Source: Myxocyprinus asiaticus (taxonomy: Eukaryota; Chordata; Actinopteri; Cypriniformes; Catostomidae). From it: a DNA stretch of 64,000 nt. Location of the stretch: NCBI RefSeq assembly GCF_019703515.2, contig NC_059373.1, forward strand, positions 19,368,281-19,432,280. Reading direction: 5' to 3'. Position numbers and translations under genes: made by a program. Below the pieces are notes generated by a model. It did no database searches and was not told where the DNA came from. It saw nothing but the letters and a program-made list of their open reading frames with translations. Below are positions 2,977 through 46,548 of the stretch, piece after piece (the first letter of the stretch is position 1; every line of letters starts with the position of its first letter).

Positions 2977-5679
2977 AGTATGTTATGCAAGTCATATTGG
3001 ATAAGAGCGTCTGTTAAATTCTTTAGATAGGAAATGTAGCTACTTAGAATGGTAAAACCTTGTACAGTCTATAATTAGGTGAGTACTAAAGAACAAAATG
3101 AGCAGATTTAGGAGTTCTGTTCTATGTCCCTCACCACATCAACACTGGAAAATAAAGCACTCTTTACATTCATTCTGTATAGGTAACCAAAAATTGACTT
3201 TATATTATTTAATTAATATTACTGATTTATTTAATCAGCAAAGCATGAAGAATGGAATGCAATTATCATCTTGCACGACATTTAATCTCTGGACCACTTA
3301 ACCTTGGAGAGATGTGACAGCAGAGATCAATGCATCAACACATTCTTAGCAATTAAAATGTTTACAGAGGCAAATGTTAAAGCCTGTTACTTTCGAATGC
3401 ATCCATTAACGTGTGCAATACACAGGGAAGGTGAAGACAAATTATAAAATAGTGCTCTTTATAACATTTACCACTGGGGGAAAAAAATCAAAAGTCAGTT
3501 ACCATGAGCTGTTAATCCACCTCAAGCATTTGACTTTCAGAAAATCCAACCCAATAAAGTTGTTTAGCAAAGACTTCCTGTTGTTTTAAAGCCATATTAT
3601 TTGATGAAAAGGTTCTCTTTTCTCTCACTTACTCAGTTTTTCTGGTTTGCTTATAAGAAGAACAAGATTACTGAATTAGGTCAACTATTTTTCCCTTCCT
3701 TTAGTTATTTTCTGACCATCAAGCTAACTGCCATGAGACTTTCACTTTATTTATTTATTTATTTTATTTACCTACCTATATCCTTACTTATAAACTTATT
3801 GTTTTAGTTATTTTATTTTATTTGCAACATAAAAACAATATGCATGCTTTATATTCATTCACTGACCAATTAAACCCCAAAGAGACTTTCACTTTATCAC
3901 TTTTCCAATTAATTTATTTTAGCTAGTTAGTTTGTTAGTTTTTTTAGTTTATTTATTTGTTTATTATTGAAATGTACAACGTATAAATCCTAATATATAT
4001 ATATATATATATATATATTCAAGGCTATTTTTAATCTTCACACATAACCTCTAAAAGTGGAATACACACCCTCAGATTGCCAGTCCATTCGCAATTACAT
4101 CTGTATAGTGACGCTGAGGTTTCATCACTGTGGTGTTCTGTTGAGGAGGATTTAGTGCAGCTGATAAGTCTGACTCAAGGTGAAGGAGTGGTGGGTGGTA
4201 TGAATACAGACAGTGCTGACGCTTGGCTTTGGAGACTCTTCAGCACCTGGACAGCTCCGCAAATCCGTAGTCAACGGATTTGCAATTTTCGTAAAACTGC
4301 GACTAAACCTACAGTTTAGCTTCTTAAAAACAGTTCTACAATTCTAAACCTTCAATCTACCAAACTTTTGTTCCAGGAGATCATCGTTACAACCCTGATG
4401 GGTGAATTACTGTAGACTGCGGCAAACTGTCATCTGCTGTACACGATGCTGTCAAGCTCAAGCCGAGATGGAAACGATAAATCTCCGCGTCTCAGACGAG
4501 ACTTCTCATGGATTTGCATGTTTATCAATGCAGTACTCGTCTTGATGTTCTGATATCGGACCGAATAAATAGCATAATTTCTTTCTCTGGAGCAGAACAT
4601 GTCTGATATGTAAATGACTGACTCAAGACTGGGAAAAATGAGTGGAAAATGTATGGACTAATCTATACATTGAAAACATTCCAGCATACAGGTAAGTCTA
4701 ATAACAATTATGTTTACAATAGTCATTTAGAACTTTTTAATGATATTATACTCTCGTATTAGGATCGTGATCAAAACTGTCACTATCAGAAAACTCAAAG
4801 GTTGTGTATCAAAGCATGCCACCTACTTGGCATTTCTGGGCATCACATGCTTGTGCAGCTCTTTATTGGCTATCATGTGTGGGTTCTGAGTCACCTGAGC
4901 TCAAAATTGATATCTAAAAATAGGCTCATATTTGATGGGCTACTGTAGATAGGGAGCGCAGAGTTTGAAGACCCAGCCTTAAAGTCTGAGTTTGTAATTG
5001 ATTTCAGCATCAATCTGTTTAGTAGATATCTGTTTTAAGAAATCGTTGTGAATGGACCAACAAAACTATAAGGAAGTTTCCCTTTTGAATACTAGATGGC
5101 TATAGCCTATTTGCTGTAAAATGTGGTGACCTGCAATTGTTATCTTAAGGTGTTGTGCCTGATCTTACCCATAAAATCAGTATTGTATTCAGGTTGATTA
5201 AGTGATTTTAAATACTATTTTTCTCATGAATAAAACTAGTAGATTTAGATATTACCACAGGAAGCACATATTTTGGTTTACCAGACAAAACATTTTTTTA
5301 CAGTGTAAGTGTAAGCTTTTGAGGCGAGGAAAGGAAAGGGTATAATAGAAAAGCTAAGTGACTTCATTTAGGTGTATTTCGCAGACATTTCACAGCATCA
5401 AATGGCATAAAGTAGGGCCAGTAATAAAATCTGTTGAGCTTTATGTTGAAGCTGATAATGTTGGTTACATGGCAGTGAGGTGCAGGATAACACATTGTTT
5501 GTTACAGAACATGTATATTGCATTACTGTAATATGTTAATAACTTCTGCCTAAGTACAGTTTACACCTAACAAGACCATCTAAAAGAAATATGTCTGAGA
5601 GCAGGAGTAGCATTATAACCTTCAATAACTAAATCAGCCTACTATCATTTCAAAAATATAGCTAGAATTAGTTGTTTTC
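2977..5679. other. Non-coding stretch with minor repeats
   Basis: No recognisable coding exon. A short SINE-like tail (ggataagagcgtctgttaaa) lies near 3000-3025, a TTTA-rich tract near 3745-3835 and an (AT)n run at about 3992-4018. Part of a MITE (gaagcaca ... cagacaaaacattttttt) lies near 5260-5305 and resembles 11545-11590. A less AT-rich patch at 4080-4700 ends in a strong splice donor (separate entry). Confidence 0.5.
4480..4691 (+). other. Candidate non-coding 5' exon end (splice donor at 4692)
   Basis: The sequence ATACAG|GTAAGTCTA at 4686-4700 is a near-consensus splice donor, and the preceding DNA is less AT-rich than its surroundings. The receptor gene downstream needs an upstream 5' UTR exon, because a splice acceptor lies one base before its ATG. 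This donor on the same strand, 4.75 kb upstream, could end that exon. The exon start is arbitrary here. The link is inference and other donors could serve. Confidence 0.25.
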
Positions 5680-9972: not shown

Positions 9973-12900
9973 GTACAGTAAGTGAATTAACAAGACGTTA
10001 TTTTAATGAGAGTTGTCATGTGTGGAATTGTCTTGTTATGAACCAGCATTAAACTGTCTCAGAGAGTTTATAGATTGATGATAATAATGGTGTTTGGAGG
10101 CACTCATTAAAGCTGAAGTGTATAATTTCTCTGCCACTAAACATAATTGCTAAAAAAAAAAAAAAAAAAAAAGTTGGACAAAGAGTCCCTCCCTAAACTC
10201 ACACCACTGATTGAGCCAATTTTGCTGTGTCAGGCTGGTCAGGATTCTCAAAAGTTTTCTCTGCATATTAAGATGGGATAGGAGAAAGTATTTTATTTTG
10301 CTCTATAACCCTTAAAAATAACTTTTGTTTGTGTAACCTAATGTATTAAGATTGATTTAGTCATATTAAATATTTTTAACTTGAGTAAAATCAGTCAGTT
10401 TGGAAGCTACCACATGTATGACCAGAGTTCAGCCATGTGGCGCAAGCTGATAAGTGCTTTGAACTAATTATGTGTTAGCCAATCAGCTCGCTCACATGTG
10501 GCATGTTAAGACAACCGGCTCGCATGGTGTAAGCAAGATGAATGGTCCTTTGACATGTAATCGGGTAGCCAATCAACTTGCATCTCTCTCTCTTTGTCTA
10601 ACGTTTAAATTGCTACATTTTGCAGAAAAGCCAGATTCAGTGGAGCACACTGTAAGATTTTTTCTCTGAAACCCACCTCCACTTGTCTAGATCTGCTACA
10701 TAGGGATTGTTTTTGTAAATTTGTGCAGCAGCATGTCATAAATGCTCGATGCATCGTGTCTTGCATTTTGCCTAATTGTGCAGCAGCAGTAGCATGTCTA
10801 CATGCTTACCTCAGCATGTCTGTGTACTATATTTCCTAGCATTAGCAAGTCTGCGTATGTGCTCTGCAACAGCAGCAGCAGCATAGCAGATCTAGCCTGC
10901 CAAGACCAATATCTTATCGATATGTCATACCCAAATTAACATGCTTAATCTTTCCAAGAGCTGTCATGACTGAAACAGTGTTGCCAATGTAACCGGTCCT
11001 GCAACATGGGAGACAGGTGCACTAACGAGGAGGCAAAAGGCTACAGCCTCTAGAGTCAGTCACTAGTGTGCCTCTTGAGGCCAGGGGAGTGAGGTTTACA
11101 CATACCGCACAGCTATCACATACCTGCTGGCTCCCGTTACACTCACCCTCCTAAACCTCACTCCCATCCAGGTCAACGGTACCACTGTAACCGGTCCTGC
11201 TCGACCTGCTCTGAACGTGATTCGAACCAGCATCTCCAGCATGGGAGGCGGGCGCGTTAACAAGGAGGCTAAAGGCTACAGCCCCTAGCATCAGTCGCTA
11301 GTGCACTTCTTGAGGCCAGAGGAATGAGGTTTACACATACCGCACAGCTATCATGTACCAGCTGGCTCCCGTTACACCAACTTTTCACCATGTGAATACG
11401 GGACACTTGAGCATTTTAAGCAATTAAACGGGACGGGGCTCCCCCTCAATTGCGTTGCTGCTAAAATATGGGACAAATGGTGCATAGGTCCTCATTTTGG
11501 CCAAAATATGAGACTTCCCAGCAAACAGTTAACAACACTACACATGAAGCACATTTTTAGGTTACCTGATAAAACACATTTTTTTACAATGAACTTCAGC
11601 TTTAAATGTGATGAGTAATTTTTAAAGTTAAAAAATTATTCCCACTTAATACGCAGAGACAACTCAATCAATCAATCAATCAATCAATCAATTTATTTAT
11701 AGAACACAATAAAAACAACAGTATTTCACAACTGTGCTTTACAACCATAATAAAAGAAATATCACAAAAATACATCACATAAATACACCATCAAAATACA
11801 TCAATACAGCTATGCTGTACAAACCGCAATGCAAGATAAAGAGGTACATCAAAGCACATATATAAGTTTACACCTTTGGACTCTAAGGACAATTGTAAGC
11901 CTGCGCAAAAAGAAAAGTTTTTAACTTTGATTTAAATTTATTTAGGGATATTGGTAAACTATTCCACAGTTTAGGGCCGGCAATGGCAAAAGCACAGTCA
12001 CCCTTCGACTTCAGTCTAGACCTGGGAACCATCAATAATCTCTGATCAGATGACCTTAGACGTCTAACAGATGTATTTGCACTCAGAAGGTCAGAGAGAT
12101 AATTCAGTGGCAGTCCATTCAAGGCTTTAAAAACATAAAGTAGGATTTTAAAATCAATTCTGTACCGGACTGGCAACCAGTGTAAAGAGAATAAGACGGG
12201 TAATGTGGTCATTTTTCCAAGTACAAGTCAAAAGTCTAGCAGCTGCATTTTGAACAGTTTGTAAATTATTAATGTACGATTGGTTTATCCCTCTATAAAG
12301 TGAACTGCAGTAGTCGAGTCGAGATGAAACAAAAGCATGTGTCACTCTCTCAAACTCTACAAATGATAAAAAAAAAAAAAACTCTTAACCTTAGCTAAGA
12401 GCCTTAATTGAAAAAAGCTAGATTTGACTACTGCATTTATCTGTTTGTCAAATTTCAGTGCAGACTCGAATATGACACCCACATTTTTCACAGAGGGTTT
12501 AACATAAGATTCCAGATCTCCCAAATCATAATTTTTGCTGCCTGAGATGCCTGAAGGCCCAAACACTATCACCTCTGTTTTGCTCTCATTTAGATTTAAG
12601 AAATGTAAGGACATCCATGACTTAATATCCGACAGGCAAGCGGATAAGGACTTCAAGCCATTTTTGTCATTATGCTTCAAGGGCAGATATATTTGAGTGT
12701 CATCTGCATAACAGTGAAATGACACCCCATGTTTGTTAAAAAACTATAACAACTATAAATATAACGCCATCTGCAGGCAGATTCCCCCCAATAATGCTTT
12801 TAAAACACTACTGTGTTTGTTTCAGCATCCAAATCAGCCTGATATGAATGCAGTAACATTGGTTCAACCAATGGTGGGAGTGTGGGGTGGGATTATCTGT

Positions 12901-15900
12901 TTGTTCGACTGATGACAGATGAGGGGAGTGTTTGTGAAACCTGCATGAAAATTGTTATTATTTTTGCAAAACCTTTAGATGCTAGTGGCAGAGAAATTAC
13001 ATGGCCAAACTGAATTAGTTTTGCTTTCTACCAAAGTTAATTCAATTGAAATGATGCAGAAATACCACTTTCAGTATACCACATGAAGCATCTCCTGATA
13101 TCCATCTAAGGTTAGCATTTTTTTTTTAAGTGATTAGTTGTAGCTTGAAGTGGTGTAATAGCTGACCCTGGATAGTGGCTCTTCACTTAACACTTGCTGC
13201 ATTGCTTATGGATCCTATTTGTCAAGCTACACTAGGCTTGGGGCATTTTTCTGTAACTTTTAACATGCTTGACTGACTCCCTTCAGTGTGATCTTTCCCT
13301 GTTCCCTTCTGAAAGAAAGATTTCTCTTCACATACTTAATTCCAGTAATGCAGGAGTTGTTGTTTTTAGCAGCCTGTGGATGTGACATTGGCTTTTAAAA
13401 TCATTAAGAGGGAGATAAAGAAGCCACTCTGATACAAGGGCAGTTAGTCAGTCACGGATAATGGGAAAGAGATGTAACTCTGTAGACAAGAGTGTGGGCA
13501 CTGAGTTGTGTATATCAATACATCTGTACTTCTCTTCACTACCACCCCCACTCCTGTATTCTATGTGCACAGTGCACACCTCCCCCAGCCTGAGAAAAAA
13601 TTGTGGGGCTTCCCTCTGTCACGCTGTGTGCTACCTGATAAATTGTGTAAGATATTATAGAGAGGCACATTGAATGGAAAAATAATGCCAACCTAAAGCA
13701 CATACATTTCCTATATCTGAAAGCATAAAGCCATAACATGACAAGAATTTATTTGATTTAAGTTTAACAAGGATAACAGAATGTGTTTTTCTTTTTTTCT
13801 TTTTTTTTCTTTTTTTTCTTTTTTTATTTCCCCCTCAAAATCCATTATACATCCCACAGTTCACAGAGGAACTCCTATCATGAAGTCGGAACAACAACAC
13901 AGCTTTTTGACACCACAACAGAAGCATTAATTACTTTACAATGTTTTTGGGTAGTTAACATGAATAGAATGACATTAACTATTTTAAATGGCATTTCGCT
14001 AATTATTTTATTTGAAAGACTACATAGAATATTTGTACTTTTATACATTATTTGGTCACACCGCAGGACCATTTAAAATGAACTAGTTGAGGAAAAAAGG
14101 TGGTTAGAAATGGTGAAAACTTAAAAGAAATGGTGATCAGTTAGAGGACCTAAGACATACACTTATATTGGCAAGTGCCCATATAAGCAAAAAACAATGA
14201 GTATTTATCTTTGGGGTTGCTCTACATCTTACCTCTCCTTATCAACTCATTTTCTTTGTTCTTTTTTTCCCCCAGTTGTTTATTTTCAGGGCAATTAAAG
14301 CTAAAGGAGTAGACTTTGTGCAGTGTGTTACACATGGAAGCTTCCAGCAGCGTTGGCAGGAAACAGCCTACAACATGTTCCACTTTGTCACCCTCTATGT
14401 GTTCCCTTTGCTTGTCATGAGCTTCTGCTACACTCGAATCCTAGTGGAAATCAACCGTCAGATGCCACGTGGTAAAGGAAAAGGTAATTTGCACTGTTCT
14501 GAAGTGGTACCTGTTGTATTTCACATAGTTAACTGATTTTGGCATTATATTCATGCTGTATAGCTGGAGGTGGAACTGGCTCCCCCAGCTGAGCCTGGTT
14601 TCTCCCTAGGTTTATTTTTCTCCATTAACTAACATCTTACAGAGTTTTTGGTTCCTTGCCAAAGTCGCTTTTGGCTTGCTCAATGGGGGCCTAATTTTTA
14701 AATAATGATTTTCAATGACATTCTTCAATGAAACTGCTCAACTTTAAGACATTACAGACATTACAGCATTATTTTCTGTAAAACTGCTTTAAAATGAAGT
14801 GTATTTTGAAAAGCACTATACAAATAAAAATGAGCTGACTTGACTGCCTACCTACAAGAATATTCAGATATTTATCAAAATTTGGTCACATTCCAATTAT
14901 GTGAGCATCATGTAAACACATTAACCTGATGGCTATAACCGAATTAGGCCAATATTCTGGTTTCTAGAAATCTAAATAAGACAACTGGAATATGCCTGTA
15001 TTAATCAGAATTGTGGGTCATGTGAGCATTTTATTCTAAATATCCACTGTAAATGAGCATTCATTTATATCTGCACATGCCCAAAAAAAGGTAAGTCTGG
15101 GTGATTTTAGATATAGACAGCGAGGAGGAGACTAAATTTGTACTAACATTTTACCGACATTAAAGGAATAGTTCATCCAAAAATGAACATTCTCTTATCA
15201 TTTACTCACCCTCATGCCATCCCAGATGTGTATGACTTTCTTTATTCTGCTGAACATAAATGAAGATTTTTAGAATAATATTTTAGCTCATGACAATGTA
15301 GGTCATGACAATGCAAGTGAATGTTGACCAGAATTCAGAAGGTCTAAAAAGGACAAAAAGGCAGCATAAAAGTAATCTATAAGACTCCAGTGGTAAAATC
15401 AATATCTCTTGAAGTGATATGATAGGTGTGATTGAGAAACAGATCAATATTTAAGTATTTTTTCACTGTAAATCTACTCTTTCACTTTCACATTCTGGTG
15501 TTGGGGCTATTCAAAGAGGAAGATTTATAATAAAAAAGGACTTAAATATTGATCTGTTTCTCAACCTCACCTATAATTTCACTTCTGAAGACATGGATTT
15601 AACCACTGGAGTCAATGAATTTTTTTGCTGACTTTATTTGTTATGACCTTCTGAGTTCTGGTTACCATTCATTTGCATTGTATGGACCTACAGAGCTGAG
15701 ATATTCTAAAAATCTTAATTTGTGTTCTGTAGAAGAAAGATACACATCATACACAGTCATACACATTTAGAATGGCATGAGGGTGAGTAATTTTCATTTT
15801 TGGGTGAACTACCCCTTTAAAAGAAATGTCATGGCCTACATTGTACATTTCTTTCCCCCCAATGTTTTTTTTTGTTGTTTTTTTTTTGTGTGTGTGTGTG

Positions 15901-21201: not shown

Positions 21202-21269
<68 letters not shown>

Positions 21270-22631
21270 GAAAGAGAGAGATTAGTAGTAGTAGTAGTAG
21301 TAGTAGTAGTATATTATAGCTTTTGAGCATCTGGGATTTTAGTCTTATAACGAACATGAGGTTGCTGAGTATTTGGAGTGAATTTGTTTGGCATGGATTA
21401 TGACTATTATATGTTTTTTTTATTTGTTTGATTTTTTTTCGAGAACATATACAGTCCTATTTCTTCTTTAATTTGTTATGGGATTAAAATCTTATTTTAG
21501 TATAACATGTTTTATACTCTGTCACGTATATCACAGAGGAACATAAATATATAGCCATTATTTGATCCTGATTAATGATTATTACACGCCGATGACTGCT
21601 TCTGCACATCTATGATCAAAGTGTCTCTATAAAACTAGAGAATAATTATACAGTTGCAGATAGATATTTTCAGATTCTAAACCTGACATTTTGGATAGCA
21701 AAACATAGTGGACAAATAAAAATGTGTAGGCTAGTAGATTTTTATTTCCAAAACAAAGTTATGTGGATTATAGACAACACATATATTGTTATAAAATATG
21801 ACTTACTTGAGATGACAAGAATAAAAGAATCTTTATATATCCTGCTATTGTCGATTACGATATGGCATGAGTAGAGCAGTTTCGTGGAGATAAAATACAA
21901 AACAATGCAAATATCCAGTCTTTAAAATAAACACCAAACTTTGAAGATGCCAGAGAGAAAATAACCTTTATTATATGGATAAATTTAAACATTAAAGCTT
22001 ATACGGACACAGATGTCTACCAGCAGAAGTTAAACTCCTAACTTTTAGTTAACCACTATGCTAATATAACCTGTAAACAAAATTGCATATAGTCTTATTG
22101 ACAACACTAAATAACACAATATTGTAAAGAGAATCTAATGTAATATGTAGCTGTGGGCGTGCACATTAAAAACATCCATTACGTCATGGAAATCAACTAC
22201 GTAGTGGATTAAATCCACTACGTCATCACGCTATGATCGTAGCGAGGACAGTCTCAAACTGGCTTCTCCCTGTCACAAACATTTGCCTCGGCACATTATA
22301 CTCTTCAATTGGTTCTATAAACTAAGCCATATCTTCATTTTTACAAACCTTGTAACTCTTAACCTATACTTAAGGTGAAGTTTTCCTAACCTTAAGAAAT
22401 ACTTAGGAAAATGGCAATTAAGGGGCTTTATGCAAAACATAACAGTTTTTAAGGGAGAACTTAAGGAAAAAATAACTATTTGAGGGAAATCATAAGAGAT
22501 TGTGACGTTTTATCTATAAAACCCCTTAAGTAACACTTAAGAGTTATTTCCTGCAACACCCTTAGGTTTAAGGGAAAGTTTAGGGAGATCTTAAGGAAAA
22601 ATTACATTTAAGGTGCTTTATGCAACTGGGC
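19991..22631. mobile_element. 2.6-kb TIR DNA element, no transposase seen
   Basis: Begins gcccggttgcataaaacacc and ends aggtgctttatgcaactgggc, terminal inverted repeats of about 21-24 bp. The subterminal regions are full of cttaag/ttaagg motifs in both orientations. No transposase domain is recognisable. It carries (AT)n at 21202-21220, (GA)n at 21220-21280 and (TAG)n at 21283-21311, plus near-palindromic tccattacgtaatgga blocks near 21030 and related ones at 22170-22225. Non-autonomous; superfamily undetermined (PIF/Harbinger is one possibility). Confidence 0.6.
21202..21311. repeat. Compound microsatellite (AT)n-(GA)n-(TAG)n
   Basis: Three adjoining simple repeats: TA dinucleotides, then AG/GA dinucleotides with minor interruptions, then about ten TAG units. 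The Glu-Arg run in one reading frame is an artefact of the GA tract. Confidence 0.95.
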
Positions 22632-30814: not shown

Positions 30815-32400
30815 AGGAAATATTGCAGCTGGTGAAAGAGCAGAGGCAGCTTTGCAAGGCATGGAGAGGAGCAGATGAGCATGAGAAGGAGGGCTTAAAG
30901 GTATTGTAGGATGGCATAAGGGCTAGGTTGTCGGTTTTGAGGAGGGCAGGGAGAATTCGACAGATGAGAAGGAAGGAAGGAGCATGAGAGGATGAAAATC
31001 ATCAAGGATCATTTTACATTTGCCAGAAATCTTCTCAAAGAGAAGAGGAGTTGAAAGCTGGTGATGCCAAAGCAAGATCTAGAAGATCACATGAAAGAAC
31101 AACTAGGAGATCCCTGTAAAGACAGCCCGATAGGCTCACCCAGATATTTCCCACAGTAGTGGGATTTGATGTAGCTCCACCCAAGTTGAGGGAGATCATA
31201 CCTTATAGGTTGTATAAGCAGTGCCCAACAGTTCTTAAACTGTTATGGAGACTACTGAGAGTTGCCTGAAAGAAGCAGTGCATACCACTGGAATGGCGAA
31301 GGGCAGTTGCCATCTTTATACCCAAAGAAAAGGAATCCACCAACTTAAGTCAGTTTAGAAGTATTGCTCTGCTGAATGTAGAAGGAAAGACTTTCTTTTC
31401 GGTGGTAGCAAAGAGGATGTCTGATTACCTCCTGAAGAATGGATACATAGATAAAAGCTGTCAGAAGGCAGGTGTACCAGGTTTTCCGGGATGTGTGGAG
31501 CATGCATCAGTAAGATGGGAGCAGATACAGTCTGCCAAGAGAGACAAGAAATACCTCCATGTAGTGTGGATGGACCTGGCAAATGCCTATGGATCAGTTC
31601 CACAACAGCTCGTCAGCTATGCACTGGAGTTTTTCCATGTACCAGAGTGTATTAAGAGCTTGGTAGATAGTTACTATGGGTAACTGAAAATATTTAATGC
31701 AACACAGGAGTACATAACTGGATGGCAGCAACTGGAAAAGGGGATTGCGATGGGATGTTCAATCTCTCCCATCCTGTTCACAGCTGCATTCGAGATCATT
31801 CTAATAGGTGCCAGACAGATGGCCCAAGGAATCCGTGCACAATCTGGGGTGAGATTGCCAGCAACAAGTCTGAAGCAACAAGAGATTTTTGGAAGAACCT
31901 AATCAGGAAGAGCAGGCATTGGATGGGGGATAGTTCCCAAACTGTGGTCAGCAGCTTCTAAAAAACAGAAGAAAGTGATGGTAGTGACAGAAGTAACTAA
32001 GATGGAAGAGGAAGGGTATATTATTTGAGTAGTCACACAGCAGCAGCAAGGGCACTGGACAGTATGGGAAGGTGCATCTAATAGAGTTTTAGGATGGGCT
32101 GACCTGTGGAAGAAGGCCAGGCTAAATTTACTAATAAAATCCACCTATGACACTCTTCCAAGCCCTGGAAATTTGTCTCTGTGGTATGATAAAGAGGAGA
32201 GTTGTCCCCTCTGCGAGGCCCCAAGAGCAAATCTGCAGCACATGTTGGCTGGGTGCAAGACTACCTTGGCACAAGGACGGTACAGGTGGAGGCATGATCA
32301 AGTGCTGCAAAAGCTGGCAGAGATCCTTGAGCTGTGTACAATAAAAGCCAACATAGGATATCATGCTCCTCAGAGGAAGTACATTGAGTTTGTAAAATAG
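30815..32400 (+). mobile_element. R2/HERO-like LINE remnant
   Basis: The + strand keeps reverse-transcriptase pieces: YRLYKQCPTVLKLLWRL, RRAVAIFIPKEKESTNLSQF, NVEGKTFFSVVAKRMSDYLL, motif A VWMDLANAYGSVP and motif B GIAMGCSISPILFTAAFEI. After about 31860 the expected YMDD motif C and thumb are missing. Coding resumes near 32150-32340 with a CPLC…LQHMLAGC Cys-Cys-His-Cys motif and RHDQVLQKLAEIL, which in the R2/NeSL/HERO group precedes the restriction-like endonuclease. The endonuclease is absent because sequence switches to another LINE at 32402. Many stops; inactive. The clade is assigned from motif style. Confidence 0.75.
31402..31683 (+). pseudogene. R2/HERO-like reverse transcriptase fragment
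   Basis: Longest open part of the element, 93 residues. It spans the finger/palm region, with KAGVPGFPGC, the catalytic-Asp motif MDLANAYGSVP and a terminal DSYYG before a stop. Motif B continues in frame after the stop. Confidence 0.7.
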
Positions 32401-33900: not shown

Positions 33901-34857
33901 CTAATGAGCCTTCTTCACAACGACTTCAGTGTGGATGGACCATGTGAGTTTCTCAGTGATGTGGACACCCAGGAACTTGAAGCTGCTGACTCTCTCCACT
34001 GGTGCTCCATTGATGGTGATGGGACTGTGTTCTCTGTCTTTTCTTCTGAAGTCCACCACAAGCTCCTTTGTCTTACTGACATTGAGGGAGAGGTTGTGCT
34101 CCTGACACCAGTGTGTCAGAGTGTGCACCTCCTCTCTGTAGGCTGTTTCATCATTGTCAGTGATCAGACCTACCACCGTCGTGTCATCAGCAAACTTAAT
34201 GATGGCATTGGAGCTATGTGTTGCCACACAGTCATGTGTGTACAGGGAATACAGTAGTGGGCTGAGAACACAGCCCTGTGGGGCTCCAGTGTTGAGGGTT
34301 AGTGATGAGGAGATGTTGCTGCCTATTCTAACCACCTGACGTCTGCTTGACAGGAAGTCCAGGATCCAGCTGCACAGCGAGCTGTTTAAGCCCAGAGCCC
34401 GGAGTTTCTCATCTTGCTTGGAGGGCACTATGGTGTTGAATGCTGAGCTGTAGTCTACATACAGCATTCTCACATAAGTGTTCTTTTTTTCCAGGTGGGA
34501 GAGAGCAGTGTGTATTGTAAATGCAATGGCATCATCAGTGGAGCGGTTGTTGAGGTAAGCAAACTGCAATGGGTTAAGAGAGAGAGGCAGCACAGAGCAG
34601 ATGTAATCTCTGATTAGTCTCTCAAAGCATTTGCTGATGATGGGGGTCAGAGCAACAGGACGCCAGTCATTTAAGCAAGTTATTTTTGATTGCTTTGGAA
34701 CAGGCACAATGGTGGATGTTTTAAAGCATGTGGGGACTACAGACAAAGAGAGGGAAAGGTTGAAAATGTCTGTAAAAACACCAGCCAGCTGGTTCGCGCA
34801 CATTCTGATGACGCGGCCCGGAATGCCGTCTGGGCCCGCGGCTTTGCGGATATTCAC
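33901..34857 (-). pseudogene. LINE reverse transcriptase domain
   Basis: 318-residue open frame beginning [14 protein letters not shown]. It has [18 protein letters not shown], motif [13 protein letters not shown], motif [21 protein letters not shown] and the catalytic box [10 protein letters not shown], then LGVHI. All RT motifs are intact within this frame; the C-terminal part continues after TGA at 33898-33900 (RLFFLRRLRKFGM). Upstream domains lie in other frames, so the element as a whole is broken. Confidence 0.9.
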
Positions 34858-35383
34858 CCATCAGAAGGATCGGGTTACATCCGCTACAGAGACGGAGAGT
34901 GAACTAACCTCTGTATCTTCGGCTGCGAGAGCTCTCTCCGCGAGGGCGGTGTTATTTCCCTCAAAACGAGCATAAAAGGTATTTAGCTCATCCGGGAGAG
35001 AGGCAGCAGTGTTCATGGTGGAGTTTTTATTCCCTTTAAAGTCCGTGATGATGTTAATTCCCTGCCACATGCTTCTAGAGTTGGTGGTGTTAAACTATCC
35101 TTCAATCTTGCTCCTGTACTGGCATTTTGCTGTTCTGATAGTTTTTTGGAGGGCATAACTGGCTTGTTTATGCTCCTCCGCGTTCCCGGAATTCCCGGAG
35201 GTCCGCACATTAAGTGCCGCGTGAACATCATTATTTATCCATGGTTTCTGGTTTGGATAGATCCATATTGTTCTGGTTGGAATGACGTCCTCTGCGGACT
35301 TTTTGATGAAACACTTTACACTATCAGCGTAAAGCTCGATGTCGTCATCAGAGGCGGATCGGAACATCTCCCAGTCCGTGTGA

Positions 35384-35953
35384 TTAAAACAGTCCTGTAG
35401 AGTCTGATTGGTCCGACCAGCACTGGATCGTTCTGAGGGTGGGTGCTTCCTGTTTCAGTTTCTGCCTGTAAGCGGGCAGAAGCAGAATGGAAGAGTGATC
35501 CGATTTGCCAAATGGTGGGCAGGATTTGTAGCCATCCCGGAAGGGAGAGTAGCAATGGTCCAAAACCCGGTCCCCTCGTGTGTTAAAACTAATGTGCTGG
35601 TGGTATTTTGGTGTGACTGATTTGAAACTGGCTTTATTAAAGTCCCCGGTCACAATGAATGCGGCCTCAGGGTGTGCGGTTTCCTGCTCACTTATACTCC
35701 CATACAGTTCCTTGAGTGCCCCGTCTGTGTCGGCTAGTGGCGGGATGTACACAGCAGTGATAATGACCGCTGTGAATTCCCTCAGTAGCCAGAATGGTCG
35801 ACACAGAAGCATGAGAAATTCCAGATCAGGAGAGCAGAAAGACTTGATAGAATGTACGTTCCTCTGATCACACCAGGATTTGTTGATCATAAAACATACA
35901 CCACCACCTCTGCTTTTACCTGAGAGGTCTTTCGCTCTGTCCGCTCGGTGCAC
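35384..35953 (-). pseudogene. LINE endonuclease domain
   Basis: 189 residues of an exonuclease-endonuclease-phosphatase fold: GKSRGGGVCFMINKSWC, VYIPPLADTDGAL, VTGDFNKASF (usual GDFN box) and GKSDHSSILLLPAY (catalytic SDH box). In the family it nicks the target for target-primed reverse transcription. The start is cut by frameshifts upstream near 35960. Confidence 0.85.
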
Positions 35954-36599
35954 GGAGAACCTGCGGATTCAATGGCTGAGTCTGGAATCTCCACAGACAT
36001 CCAAGTTTCCATAAGGCAGATAATGCAGCAGTCCCTTGTCTCTCATTGGAAAGAGATCCACGCTTTCAGCTCGCAGAGCTTGCTATCCAGAGACTGAACA
36101 TTTGTCAGTAGAATACTGGGTAGCGGGGGTCGATTTGCGCGGCGTCTTACTCTGATGAGAACGCCGGCTCTGTTTCCCCTTTTCCTCCTGCGTTTCCGTG
36201 GCCGTGCAGCCCAGACAAAGGGCTCCGCTTGCATGTTTGTAAACAGCGGGTCGGCATTGAGGAATTTGAAGTCCGGTTTTCAGTGTGAAATTGCTGAACC
36301 AATGTCCAAAAGTGTTTGTCTGTTGTAGACAATAAGGCTGACAACATCCAAGACAAAAAACATAAGAATTGTGAACAAAACAAACAAAACACTACTATGT
36401 TGTGTCAGAGCTCGCAACGCAGCAGCCATACTCGGCGCCATCTTGAGTCCAATTTTATATTGTGTGACAAAAGTGATTTGATTTGGAGGGAGGAAAGGTC
36501 AATCCTGGCACATGGAAGTGATTGGTCAATGGTGGTCGACCTTGGCCAGCAGCTAAAATTTCCTTCTGAGATCGCCATTACCTCCTTGAGGCCATACTT

Positions 36600-39899: not shown

Positions 39900-40457
39900 A
39901 GGTAATACAGGTAATTTAAGTCAAGTCCAGTTGTAAAGTCACTGTCCAGTTACTGGTTTTCAGCATTTTTAATGTCCCAATGTGATCAGCCAATCAACAA
40001 TAATGGCTTTTTAACTTTTGTACTAGAAGTGCCTTGGACATTTTTTTTTCTTCTAATTTTCAAGTAAAAGTTATTCCTTATTTATTTTATTAAGACCCTT
40101 TAGTTAGGCTAGCCTATTCAGTTCCCTGTTTGATTAAGCAAAGTCTGGCCCAACTTCACCTTCAAGATGGGCACTCCCACCTACACTGAAGTAGTGGGCT
40201 GACATTTAATACAAATGTCATTCTGTGTATTTGAAAGGCCTCCATAAATTGTGTACCCTGTGTTTAATCAGCCGCCTGCTCAAAGTAGGAAAATGGTGCA
40301 CCTACTGACCTCATACATCAATAACATTTGTATATTATGTCAGTATTAATTTAATGGGGAAGTGTGAAATTTCTGCACCAATAGCATCAGCAAACCGGAT
40401 ATATGTATAAACAGTACATAGTCTCTCTTTCTCTGTCTCTCTCTCTCTTTCTCTCTT
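39900..40457. other. Non-coding flank with (TC)n tract
   Basis: Unremarkable AT-rich DNA ending in an interrupted CT-rich microsatellite at about 40421-40457, which forms the left flank of the Tx1-type LINE. Confidence 0.6.
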
Positions 40458-40666
40458 CCGGGTGAGTGGGTGGAGCTTTGAGTGTGAGCGTGTGGCTGCT
40501 GTGCGAGGTATGAGTGGTCTATACTTCTCTATCTTTTTCTTTATTTCACTTTCTTTTTTTTCTTTTGTTTATAGTTTGTAGTTTTCATTTTTTGTAGAAC
40601 TATTTTGTAAAGTAGGGAAGTGAGTGTTGTGTTTAGCTGGGGTATTGGCTCCCGCGTGTTGGGAGC

Positions 40667-42006
40667 ATGGCTACCCCAGGCAGCGGGAGTTTTAATTTTC
40701 TGTCAAGGCGTCATGGTGTTAAAATAGATTCAGCCACTGGTGTGTAGGGATGCAGTTTAGCGGTAGAAGTGATTGGACACGAGAATATTGTGTCAGCATC
40801 CCGTATGAATGCGCTGTTGTTGTTTTTGTGAAAACAGTTGATTTAGCAAATCAGTTAGTGCAAAGCGGTATAGTGATTAATGGTATTTTTACACCAGTGC
40901 TTCCCTTGTCTACACCTTCAAAAAAAGTGACGCTATCAAATGTGCCACTATTCATCCCAAATGAAGTGTTGATCAGATTGCTTGCCCGTTATGGTAAAAC
41001 AGTTTCTCCTATAAAGATGATTCTGATTGGCACCAAGTCTCCTCTCTTGAAACATGCTGTGTCTTTTAGGCATTGTTTATATGATCCTGCAAGATAACCT
41101 CGATGAACTGGATTTGTCCTTGAATTTTCGACATGAGGATTTTAACTGTCATTTTTGCCACTACAAATAACAAGAAGTGTTTTAACTGTGGCTAAATGGG
41201 GCATTTGATCCGTGCGTTTCCAAGTAACGTTAGACTGGATAAGTCAAATGAGGGACCTTTACAGGTTGTAAATGATGGAAATGTTGTAAATGCTAACGAA
41301 AATCAGAAAGTTGCTGCGATTGTCACTGATGATGATGATGTACCTGGACCAAGTTCAGTGCAGACAGCGGCTGCTGCGACTGTCGCAGAGGCAGTGGACA
41401 GAGCAGGTAGCTCGCTCTGTGGGAGATGAAGGTATGATGGTTACTGTGGGTGAAGAGAACGAAGTGGAGAATAGAGACGGTGTGGCGGACGCTGCAGATA
41501 AACCTTCCGTTAATCTTGAAGCCGTGATGATGACTGAGTTAGACGATTGTGCTTTTAAAATGCCACAGAAGCGAAGGTTAGAACAACGTCCTTCAGAACA
41601 GAAAGCAAAAAGAGGATTCGGTTGTGATCTAAGTCAAACGGACACAGAAAGTGAAAGTGATTTCTCGGAATGCAGTGTAACGTATAGTTTGCCGCAAAGT
41701 GGATTTTCGAATAGGAATTATAGTGCGGCTGACATTAAATCCTTTTTGAAGGCAAATAAGAATGTGAGAAAAGTTCGTATTGAAGAGTATTTTCCTGATG
41801 TGATACAGTTCATTGACAAAGCAAGAATATTGATGAGAAATGCGAGTGATTGGGCAAGAGCGTTTGACGGATTGTCTATATTAAGTTATTTGAGTTCCAC
41901 CAGTGGAGGCATTGCTATTTTATTTTCCATGGGGTTTATTCCTTGTTCGTATCAAGTGGAAGAGATCTTAAAATGTAGACTTTTTAAAAGTCAGAGCCCA
42001 GTTTGA
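40667..42006 (+). pseudogene. Tx1-type LINE ORF1, degraded
   Basis: The probable start is ATG at 40667 (MATPGSGSFNFLSRRHG), but a stop follows near 40745 and the frame changes at 40750. The next part (SIPYECAVVVFVKTVDLA, VPLFIPNEVLIRLLARYGK) resembles the N-terminal region of Tx1 ORF1 proteins. A zinc knuckle at about 41174-41223 reads KCFNCG, stop, MGHLIRAF, so it carries an in-frame stop and Phe in place of the final Cys. The C-terminal 190 residues are open (41438-42006) and include acidic DLSQTDTESESDFSECSVTY and DIKSFLKANKNVRKVRIEEY, a segment shared by fish Tx1-like proteins. Confidence 0.78.
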
Positions 42007-42009
42007 GAA

Positions 42010-45000
42010 TTGTTTTTTTGTATTTATTTCTGTATATGTTCCTACCAGAGCAATTTAAAGAATATGTTTTTTAGATACTTTGAGTCATGTATTAGCAAAT
42101 TGTAACTCAGAGGATGTTTTAATTTGGGGGGGGGGGGGGGGGGTATTTAATTGTACTGAACACTTATCAGATAGAAATCATGTAGAGCCTCATATGCCAT
42201 CATGAAAGAGACTCATTGAATTGATGAAATCTAATGAGATTGCTGATGTGTGGAGAAATTTTCATTTTACTCAGAGGCAGTATACTTGGGTACATGTTCA
42301 AGATAATCTGTTATCTCTAGCTAGGTTGGATAGATTTTATGGATACAGACATCAACTTAATTTATTTAGGGGATGTTCTATTATCCCAGTTGGTTTATCT
42401 GATCATAGTCTAGTAAAGTGTGCTGTGACAGTGGGTTCTATTAAGCCCAAAAGTGCTTATTGGTACTTGAATACAATCTGTTATGTGATCACTTTTTTCA
42501 AGGTATTTTTAAAGAGTTTTGGGTTGATTTTAGATCCAAAAAATCTTCCTTTCAGTCTGATAGAGCAGTGACAGCCGTGTCAACATTATATATTTAATGC
42601 CACAAGAGATAGAAAAGGTGCAATTGAAATGTTAGAAAAAGAATTAAAAGAATTGCAAGAACTTGCTGATGTCACTGGAGATTTGACTATTATCAAGAGT
42701 TTTAAAGAGAAAAATAATTTTTTTTAATGACCTGTTAGATGTAACTACACAAGGAGCTCTGGTCAGGTCAAGATTTCAGAATATAGAGCTGATGGATGCG
42801 CCTTTTAAATTCTTCTTTAATTTAGAAAAGAAGAATGGGCAAAAAAAGGCTTTTTTTTTTTTGTTGTTGTCAGATTCTTCTGAAATCAGAAACAGGGCAG
42901 TTAGTTTTTATGGAAAATTATATGAGAGTGAATTAACACTTGTTGAAACGGATGTGAGTTTTTTTGAAAATCTGCCTCAAGTTTCTGAAGAAGTTAATGC
43001 TGAACTTAGTAAAGCTGTCACTTTAGAGGATTTAGAAAAAGCACTTCAAAATATTGAAGGTGGTAAAGTACCTGGAATTGACGGGCTACCAGTTGAATTT
43101 TATAAGACGTTTTGGACAGAGGTGAGCCCAGATTAATTGCAGGTACTAAATGAAAGTTTGGTCAATGGACAGCTACCTTTAAGTTGTAGAAGGGCGGTCC
43201 TCACATTATTGCCAAAGAAAAGTGATCTAAATGAGATCAAAAACTGGAGACCTGTGAGCTTGTTGTGCACTGACTATAAGTTACACAATAGATTGAGTGA
43301 AGTTCTAAGTCAAATTATTCATCCTGACCAGACTTATTGTGTTCCAAGGAGACGAATCTTTGATAATATCTCTTTTATTAGGGATATTTTAGATATTGGC
43401 AAAAGCCTAAAATTGGATTTTGGCCTAGTGTCCATTGACCAAGAAAAAGCTTTCGACAGAGTGGAACACATGTACTTATGGAATGCTTTAACAGCTTTTG
43501 GTTTTAGCATTGATTTTATTTCCTTGATTGAAGTGTTGTACAATGATGTTGAAAGTGTTTTGAAAATTAATGGGAATTTGTGTGCCCCTTTTAGAGTTTT
43601 TAGAGGTATCAGACAAGGCTGCGCTTTGTCTAGAATGCTGTATACTTGGGCTATAGAGCCCCTCTTAAATAAACTAAGAGCAGAATTGTATGGATTACGT
43701 GTCCCAAGATGTACAAATGTTTAAGTTATCGGCATATGCTGAGGATGTTGTTGTTTTAATTAATGGACAGAGAGATGTAAATGTGTTGTTGGAGATCTTG
43801 AATGATTTTAAAAGAATTTCTGCCACAAAAGTAAATTGGTCCAAGAGTGAAGCAATATTGGTTGGAAGTTGGGTCAATATGGAGCCAAAGCTCCCAGAAG
43901 GTTTATCCTGGACCAAGGAAGGTTTAAAATATTTGGGAGTGTTTTTAGGGGATGACATTTTTATGCAAAATTTTTTTGAAGGAATTGTTGAGAAGTTTAA
44001 AGGTCACCTTAACAAGTGGAATTTTTTGCTCCCTAAAATTTTATATAAAGGATGAGTATTGATTATCAACAATTTAATTGCATCTGCTCTTTGGCATCGA
44101 TTAATTTGTGTGGATCCTCCACAAGATCTACTGCCAAGACTACAATCAGTTTTAGTTGACTTTTTTTGGGACAAAATGCATTGGGTACCGAAAGCTGTTC
44201 TGTATTTACCCAAAGAAGAAGGAGGACTTGTTTTAATGCACATACAGAGCAGAATAGCAGCCTTCAGGGTTCAATTTGTTCAAAGACTGCTGACTGGACA
44301 AATGGACTCAAGCTGGAAATTCGCTGCTTGTGTCATTTTGCGAGATTTCAGAGGTCTAGACTTTGAGAGATCTTTATTTTGGTTGAATCCACAAAAGATG
44401 GACTTGTCTAAGTTGCCCACTTTTTACCGGAACTTATTTAAAGTTTGGTCTCTGTTTAAGGTACAGAGACTCAGCACTATGACCTCTCGGCGTTGGTTGC
44501 TGCAAGTACCTCTGATTTATGGATCACGCTTGGACTTATCAAATGAAAAGATACTCCCTGCAATTTGTGACATTCTTTTTAAAACTGGAGTATTAACGCT
44601 TTGAAATTTATTTAAACTGGCTGGATTGGCTTTTGAGGATGTCGATACAGTTGTCGGACATTTGGGGGTAAAGTCGAAATGCATAACGGCCAAATTACTT
44701 GAAAAATGGAAGTTAACACTTACATCAGAGGAAGTTAAATTGCTGGAAGAATACACTGAAGGTTTAATTACTCCAAACTGTAATGACCCTTTTCCTGATT
44801 TGTGTCTGTTGACTGACTTTGAAGAGTGTGAAGGCGTTTTTTTACAAGCCAACATTTTGATGTTAATAGGTCCTAATCCAGTGTCTGGAAAAGTTTTGTA
44901 CAAGAGCTGTGTCAAAACTCTGAATAAGAAGTCTTTGCATAAAAGAGTTGATATGCCTTGGCGTTCTGTCCTCCATTTAGGAGAGAATGTTAAACCAGAA

Positions 45001-45765
45001 TGGAGAGCATTATACAAATCACCTTTGCCAAAGAAAGTGGGAGACTTACAATGGAGAATTCTTCATGGCGCTATTGTAGTGAATGCTACAATGAATGCAA
45101 GGAGTGGTGATGGCGTAGTGGGCTAAAGCACATAACTGGTAATCAGAAGGTTGCTGGTTTGATCCCCACAGCCACCACCATTGTGTCCTTGAGCAAGGCA
45201 CTTAACTCCAGGTTGTTCCGGGGGAATTGTCCCTGTAATAAATGCACTGTAAGTTGCTTTGGATAAAAGCGTCTGCCAAATGCATAAATGTAAATGAATG
45301 CATTTGTTTTGGTTATAAACCCTGGTATTAGCGATGAATGTCCCTTTTGCTTCCAGAAAGAAAATATATTCCATGCTTTTTTGTATTGTAACAGGCTCAT
45401 ACCATTGTTTCAGGTTTTAAAGAGTTTATTTGATCGTTTTGATGCGATTTTTTCTTTGGAAATGTTTATTTGTGGTTTTAAATACACCCAGAAACGTCGA
45501 TTTTGTTGCAAATTGCTGAATTTCCTATTAGGTCAAGCGAAAAAGGCAATTTATGACACTAGGAAAATAAGAATTGAACGGAATTCAAGTATCAATTTAC
45601 AAATTTTGTTTCTTAACCTAGTGAAATCCAGAATTTTAATTGACTTTTGGTATTACAAGGCTATTGGGGATCTTATGTCTTTTGAATTGATTTGGTGTTA
45701 TAAGGGGGCTCTGTGTGAAATTATTAATGAGAGTTTACAGTTTGTACATGTTTTAAAATGATCTG
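42010..45765 (+). pseudogene. Tx1-type LINE ORF2 (endonuclease, reverse transcriptase), degraded
   Basis: The N-terminal part of the endonuclease is missing. Coding is picked up near 42050, the GGDFN box is overwritten by an 18-G run, and QYTWVHVQDNLLSLARLDRF and GLSDHSLVKCAVT (SDH box) follow. RT motifs are GGKVPGIDGLPVEFYKTFW, RRAVLTLLPKKSDLNEIKNW, LVSIDQEKAFDRVEH (motif A) and GIRQGCALSRMLYTWAIEPL (motif B). The catalytic box is mutated to YAED at 43735-43746. KYLGVFLG and the Tx1/L1-like C-terminus follow, with CPFC…FHAF…C near 45328-45390. Stops occur at 42569, 43134, 43722, 44053 and 44602, and a SINE interrupts at 45100. Confidence 0.85.
45100..45292 (+). mobile_element. tRNA-derived SINE nested in LINE
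   Basis: Head gatggcgtagtgggctaaag resembles box A and ggttgctggtttgatcccc box B of a tRNA-type promoter. The tail ggataaaagcgtctgccaaa is the conserved 3' module shared by HE1/V-SINE-like fish SINEs. A perfect 10-bp target duplication aatgaatgca flanks it at 45090-45099 and 45293-45302. Removing it restores the LINE frame across VVNATMNA and FVLVINPG. Confidence 0.93.
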
Positions 45766-45897
45766 ATTTGAAAGTATTGATTTTTGTTTTGGGTATTTGT
45801 TATGAATTGAATGTGTATATTTTGTATTCTCTTAGGTAGGAACTGATTGTATTAGTTTAGGATAATTGTAATAAAGGTGTGTTGAAATTCAATTCAT

Positions 45898-45919
45898 TTC
45901 TCTCTCTCTCTCTCTCTTT
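45898..45919. repeat. (TC)n microsatellite, 3' flank of the LINE
   Basis: Eleven TC units directly after the 3' end of the Tx1-type LINE. The matching left flank is the interrupted CT tract at 40421-40457. Confidence 0.95.
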
Positions 45920-46548
45920 GACCTTTTTTGAGTGGCACCTACAGTGACAGGCATTTTGATGTACCTCACTTGTTGCTCTATTTGAAATAACAGAGTAAAT
46001 GTTGGTATGTGTGCTGTGTAGTTGAAAAGTTATAAGAATTTAAATCTTGCCTACTTACACTGACAAATTGGCCTATACCAGTGCATTTCATTGAAAAATT
46101 TGCCACATGGAAGCTTGTTTCAAGCTGAGTGCACACCTCACTCCATTTGTAATAGCATGATTGATGAGTGAACCACACAATTCTCTTCACTCTAGCTGCA
46201 CATTCATATGGAATAGACTGACAATTTACCTACACCTGATGGATTGCAAAGACATTTGATTGACAGAAACCAAGCTGCATAAGAAGGCAACTGGGAATGT
46301 GATCAGTCAGCAGCATTCAATTTGGATGGATTTCCTTTTTCCTTTCCCAGATCTTGATATCATTCTCAATTGATTCTGCATGCCATTCTCAGTTTTTGTT
46401 TGTTCCTACCTCATGAAAATCTCTCCCTCTCTTTTCTCACTTTCATTTCCCATTTGTTCTGAGTTCCTCTCACAGTTCTCACACATCTATTTTTAGAGTT
46501 TTTTGTGCTTCCATAAGTCATATTTCATATCTGTATAAGTTTCCTATA
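45920..46548. other. Non-coding stretch, nothing recognised
   Basis: AT-rich DNA between the LINE and the next TIR element. No exon or repeat family was identified. Confidence 0.45.

Follow-up and report, generated by a model that had tools for sequence, protein, structure and literature searches.

A 5438-bp LINE (about 40460-45897, + strand), Tx1-type by sequence identity, was found with an interrupted CT tract (40421-40459) on its left and a pure TC tract (45899-45917) on its right, in the window, that is, the whole 64-kb stretch of DNA that was analysed. The two tracts were read as two parts of one target microsatellite. The favoured explanation, to which a probability of roughly 60% is given, is that a Tx1-type LINE, from a fish lineage to which a zebrafish 'pol-like' element (probably a Kibi) also belongs, inserted into a pre-existing (TC)n microsatellite and then decayed. 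Insertion into a TC repeat at this particular site appears likely. Targeting of TC repeats by the lineage as a whole is plausible but unproven, as it rests on one copy and a probable kinship to Kibi. The features of the locus were as follows.

40421..40459, + strand: left interrupted (CT)n tract, from the sequence (TRF array 40421-40457; pyrimidine run 40436-40459)
40460..45897, + strand: Tx1-type LINE by identity, near full length with an internal stretch missing, decayed; boundaries accurate to a few bases and set by the tracts
40460..40722, + strand: putative 5' untranslated region, upstream of the element's first long open frame
40723..41838, + strand: probable ORF1 relic, from its position and a knuckle at 41178; continues in frame into the middle of the endonuclease
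41839..42472, + strand: ORF2 endonuclease remnant, from tblastn and alignment to the zebrafish protein P0001
42126..42143, + strand: run of 18 G at the site of the GGDFN motif of intact relatives, from alignment
42693..44055, + strand: ORF2 reverse transcriptase (RT) region, spread over two main frames and carrying stops at 43134 and at 44053 (Pfam RVT_1)
43732..43746, + strand: RT catalytic motif, AYAED in place of AYADD, from alignment
44056..45758, + strand: ORF2 C-terminal region, interrupted by a SINE (weak zf-RVT match; alignment)
45100..45292, + strand: SINE-like insertion of 193 bp, with the direct repeat AATGAATGCA at 45090-45099 and 45293-45302
45762..45897, + strand: 3' untranslated region, containing AATAAA (45870) and an 11-bp inverted repeat
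45899..45917, + strand: right pure (TC)9.5 tract, from the sequence

The left tract is 39 bp long and contains interruptions, its longest pure stretch being 13 bp (40436-40448). At the left junction the pyrimidine run stops at 40459 and is followed by GGGTGAG, and at the right junction CAATTCA is followed by a pyrimidine run from 45897. The preliminary description had placed the start of the element directly after an interrupted CT tract and its end directly before a TC tract, and both placements were confirmed. Its count of 11 TC units in the right tract was too high, and is corrected here to 9.5 units.

CT-rich tracts are common in fish genomes generally, which would favour a chance position of the element between two unrelated CT-rich stretches. 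Tracts were defined by at least 14 of 16 bases alternating between C and T (or A and G for an AG tract). By this rule three CT tracts (10583-10599, 40422-40457 and 45896-45920) and a single AG tract, 68 bp long (21215-21282), were present in the 64-kb window; apart from the two flanking tracts, this leaves one CT tract of 17 bp and the AG tract. As a control for chance, an interval of 5438 bp was slid along the window (58,561 placements), and an end no more than 3 bp from a tract was counted as a success. Both ends were near a tract in 5 of the 58,561 placements, which by their coordinates were the real site and its neighbours. When the two flanking tracts were disregarded, the counts out of 58,561 placements were 0 for both ends near a tract and 194 for either end, in a control that was run after the pattern had been noticed and for an element whose ends were themselves drawn at the tracts. 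Because no placement matched, a double TC flank is unlikely to arise by chance, with the same reservation that the control is post hoc and the ends were drawn at the tracts. Given this result and the scarcity of other CT and AG tracts in the window by the same rule, a purely accidental position was considered very improbable.

The two flanks (40370-40470 and 45890-45990) were compared with each other, and among the first 15 matches listed the exact shared stretches of at least 7 bases consisted of C/T repeat, with one exception. The longest common stretch was 15 bases of C/T, TCTCTCTCTCTCTTT (40436-40450 and 45905-45919). The sole common stretch of another kind among the matches listed was the 7-base TGAGTGG (40463 and 45929), which is of chance length, and for this reason a unique target-site duplication was not seen among them. 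The shared 15-base stretch also suits a non-specific insertion at a short CT-rich site, with a C/T duplication of a few bases of which both copies later grew by slippage. Duplication of a CT-rich site alone would give CT at both ends, and the interruptions of the left tract and the dissimilarity of the two tracts are in keeping with such a history, as is the diversity of the zebrafish Tx1-type families, of which 37 in three branches are given in the available part of one report (PMC4746887). Two separate expansions would however be required, and 39 bp on the left together with 19 bp on the right are more simply explained by one earlier array, so that this course of events was regarded as rather unlikely.

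For insertion into a pre-existing TC repeat, a mechanism can be proposed from the anatomy of the locus and the known working of non-LTR elements. The element would have inserted with its sense strand parallel to the pyrimidine strand of the (TC)n repeat. An AP-type endonuclease would have nicked the purine (GA)n strand, if the polarity of the nick is read correctly, and the freed 3' end would have primed reverse transcription from the 3' end of the element (target-primed reverse transcription). The second end would then have been joined within the same TC tract, and TC repeat would be present on both sides because the second junction formed in the same array. Later decay would have involved loss of the endonuclease start, frame changes, stops, losses of catalytic motifs and the SINE. 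Points against this explanation include the single copy, the interrupted left tract and the fact that the ends were set by the tracts.

At the 3' end of the element, a perfect 11-bp inverted repeat was found (45802-45812 and 45887-45897), the right arm of which finishes at the TC junction. No poly(A) separates the AATAAA at 45870 from the TC run. Simple (short tandem) repeats form the 3' end of many LINE families, and this, like the absence of poly(A), is compatible with the right TC run being the element's own repetitive 3' tail and the left tract being a separate coincidence. Such a tail would leave the left tract unexplained, as either end of the sliding interval was near another tract in only 194 of 58,561 placements, and a small probability was assigned to it. 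A special RNA structure of the 3' end was also considered, and is simply recorded here because the fold of the 3' untranslated region was ordinary, with a z of -1.34 and 19 of 200 shuffles folding at least as well. Rfam models, applied to the whole window with their gathering scores, gave no match.

On the + strand, coding remnants of the LINE start near 40723 with ORF1, placed by position, and extend as far as the stop of ORF2 at 45759-45761. Pfam RVT_1 matched two pieces of the window, which differ in frame, with E values of 2.2e-21 and 1.9e-7; zf-RVT matched one piece with an E of 0.009, under its cut-off. The two ORF1 pieces gave no match above cut-off in Pfam. Exo_endo_phos is present in P0001, and a search of the endonuclease remnant returned nothing at E ≤0.01. 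In the window RVT_1 alone thus exceeds its cut-off, and the endonuclease was recognised by alignment. The domain order in P0001 is Exo_endo_phos, RVT_1 and zf-RVT, the last at 27.4 bits against a cut-off of 27.5 bits. The preliminary description had taken the ORF2 domain order to fit Tx1, and the Tx1-type order of AP-type endonuclease, RT and zinc-binding C-terminus is borne out in this relative. The zinc knuckle that had been described for ORF1 was present once, at 41178, as CX2CX4HX4F; it is a relic from which the final cysteine is gone and which has a stop inside.

The copy has decayed throughout. ORF2 matches P0001 from residue 79 onward by tblastn and alignment, so that some 78 residues are absent at the N-terminus, and the N and QETH motifs along with them. 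Five in-frame stops (42056, 42203, 43134, 44053 and 44602) and five frame changes, not counting the SINE join, were found in ORF2. The GGDFN endonuclease motif is broken by the run of 18 G, which lies within the decayed endonuclease coding sequence, and the RT motif YADD is changed to YAED near 43732. Of 247 ORF2 columns that are invariant in 23 relatives, 208 are conserved in the window element, 21 are missing from it and 18 are altered; when each of these relatives was compared with the others in the same way, it differed at 0-10 of their 247-257 invariant columns. We take the insertion at 45100-45292 to be a SINE, a typing made by eye, and no second copy of it was detected in the window by BLAST of 45099-45286. 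An active element was rejected on the grounds of the five stops, the five frame changes, the missing N-terminus of the endonuclease, the broken GGDFN, the YAED and the SINE. Because of these defects and the loss in the ORF1 knuckle, the copy would be unable to move by its own proteins and, judged by its sequence, is a dead, defective LINE.

For the identification of relatives, the RT region of the ORF2 read-through was searched, and 723 proteins at E ≤0.001 were obtained among 7987 candidates scored, of which the best 120 were listed. Three protein searches, each represented by the best 120 of 723, 226 and 449, together listed 178 proteins. The top match among the best 120 of 723 was P0001, a zebrafish 'pol-like protein', with 74% identity over the searched region. 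An unnamed NCBI protein, P0063, was 79% identical over 71% of the searched RT region. P0001 belongs to the same ORF2 lineage as the window element and has the same domain order, with 72% identity in ORF2 (876/1217 residues) and 78% in the RT. Its ORF2 has 1329 aa and no stops; in the window copy, by contrast, the N-terminus of the endonuclease is missing and catalytic motifs are broken. ORF2 identity was 78% (541/692) to P0063. It was 45% to a 'pol-like protein' of Takifugu and likewise to one of Tetraodon, 41% to two proteins carrying the name YTX2, and 28% over 867 residues to L001, a Keno-like sequence described below. Many of the protein matches sit on contigs of about 5.5 kb.

In the RT core, five complete proteins to which annotators gave the name YTX2 or TX1 149 kDa protein showed 56-63% identity to the window element, in a comparison from which the Xenopus Tx1 protein itself is absent. 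A sixth, partial protein of such a name was 47% identical over 110 columns. Identity was 38% to L001 and 32% to human L1. The RT is thus closer to Tx1-named proteins than to L1, which supports assignment of the element to the Tx1 type by identity. The RT-core tree that included an outgroup gave little resolution, so the case for kinship is more one of identity than of a rooted clade. The Tx1 affiliation that had been proposed for the element is supported as far as identity goes (56-63% against 32%); the clade itself was not firmly shown, the 57-row tree below being rooted on human L1 by choice and the deep branches of the RT-core tree being left without resolution.

Three trees were made with rows picked by hand from the 178 listed proteins, and comprised 57 rows (54 proteins), 29 rows (27) and 18 rows (14). 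The other rows were the window element and L001 in all three and human L1 in the 57- and 18-row trees; the 18-row tree also had a further LINE found in the window, which served as its outgroup. In the 29-row tree the window element, P0001 and P0063 formed one set with support of 100/100 inside a large fish group, and the set was also fully supported in the 57-row tree, in which human L1 was the root by choice. Three of the four TX1-like-named rows of the 57-row tree lay in the large fish group, and the fourth in a neighbouring group with two YTX2 rows. Rooted on human L1, this tree had the Takifugu protein closer than the Tetraodon protein to the window lineage (99), and the 29-row tree left the order of the Takifugu, Tetraodon and window lineages without resolution. 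In the 18-row tree of the RT core, with its distant outgroup, the window element was joined with P0063 (82/86) but not with P0001, and the set of three was not recovered; human L1, L001 and the fish rows were without deep resolution. Deep positions in the trees are unsure because of the long branches of human L1, L001 and the outgroup.

The preliminary description had called the element Kibi-like, which is plausible from the protein comparisons. Its nearest named relative is a zebrafish 'pol-like protein', and both lie in the large fish group that also contains the proteins of Takifugu and Tetraodon. Identity of the element to each of the latter is only 45%, and the order of the three in the trees was left without resolution. 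P0001 is probably a Kibi (KibiDr1 or KibiDr2). By the same reasoning the Takifugu protein P0154 (Q76IM4_TAKRU) is probably the Takifugu Kibi (KibiFr1/Kibi_Tr), and the Tetraodon protein P0145 (Q76IM5_TETNG) probably the Tetraodon Koshi (KoshiTn1); both differ from the window element in belonging to separate sub-groups. In the available parts of the literature, PMC2684134 gives KIBIDR1 and KIBIDR2 as zebrafish elements and mentions KOSHITN1, Kibi_Tr is equated with AB097136 (PMC4746887), KibiFr1 is the L1 entry in a pufferfish table (PMC2996927) and the closest Repbase entry to fugu L1 is KibiFr1 (PMC6515669). 'Pol-like protein' is there also the product name of Ciona BAC82623 and BAC82626 (PMC3538665). 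None of the records examined names P0001 as a Kibi or gives its target. The two Ciona entries were presumably submitted by the same authors as the Kibi families.

Target-specific families are concentrated in three LINE groups, among them the Tx1 clade, according to the available part of PMC4640811. In zebrafish, as far as the available text of PMC3706591 goes, Mutsu targets the 5S rRNA genes, Keno the U2 genes and Dewa a tRNA-Leu spacer. The title of Kojima and Fujiwara (2004), as seen in reference lists, gives RNA genes and microsatellites as targets. Literature text naming the repeat that Kibi targets was not found, the 2004 source paper being known by its title alone. That paper is credited, reportedly, with these families, its contents beyond the title being second-hand, and it is said to share authors with the paper on the Mutsu, Keno and Dewa targets. 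A sub-lineage of the window element, the zebrafish 'pol-like protein' and P0063 might also have evolved the targeting of TC repeats separately from the pufferfish Kibi and Koshi, with a 3'-terminal hairpin that stops at the junction and positions the RNA on the repeat; a slim chance is given to this possibility.

Further copies and relatives were sought in the window and in other collections. BLAST of 40000-46499 against the window at E ≤1e-3 gave no second copy of the element, as only the AG tract (21219-21281) and a T-rich stretch (13794-13827) were matched. No relative was obtained from viral contigs with P0001 or with alignment A1, or from genome contigs with P0063. With alignment A1, one distant relative was found in the genome contigs out of 309 stretches, namely L001. 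A 21-base piece of the 3' end of the element had no exact match in the other collections. Among plasmids a single weak match was obtained, to one from Alicyclobacillus, and the search of phages gave no match.

L001 contains an open, partial ORF2 of 917 aa (nt 2-2752), and the contig carries no endonuclease part of ORF2. A match to U2 snRNA was found at 3497-3678, about 0.75 kb after the ORF2 stop. The contig end (5310-5340) was presumed by us to be the start of U2, as which it reads, and a typed U2 pattern reaching past the contig end gave 0 matches. L001 was read as host DNA in the MAG of a symbiont of Taylorina, which we take to be a bivalve, and its sequence has the appearance of a Keno-type insertion in a mollusc. 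Among the hosts given in the available part of PMC4640811 are frogs, fish, lancelet and hydra, and the mollusc host lies outside those given there. L001 would be an example of targeted Tx1-type insertion in a distant relative of the window element. Like Keno, which is U2 snRNA-specific and has an AP-type endonuclease, it has a multicopy target beside its 3' end; it differs from the window element in its low identity and in a target other than the TC repeat.

Other repeats and relics were observed in the window. An RT (33901-34860, - strand) and an endonuclease (35384-35968, - strand) belong to another LINE relic, 20-23% identical to Tx1-type queries, which by eye we assume to be Rex1/Babar-like. 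An RT relic at 31198-32400 (+ strand) was 25-26% identical to Tx1-type queries; it appears by eye to have a cysteine-histidine and restriction-like tail and is presumably, if this is right, of HERO or NeSL type. At 21219-21311 an (AG)31.5 tract is followed by (TAG)9.7, and Tx1-type sequence was not found beside it by BLAST or tblastn.

With regard to its flanks, the window element resembles Togen, (TG)n-specific fish LINEs related to NeSL in the available part of PMC4640811, as both have dinucleotide microsatellite flanks. The NeSL type however has a restriction-like endonuclease, whereas the relatives of the window element have an AP-type endonuclease. As a single dead copy the window element adds little on mechanism, and what it contributes is one more probable instance of a LINE within a fish microsatellite. 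LINEs with a specific target illustrate how selfish elements restrict the damage to their host, and are studied as tools for the placement of genes.
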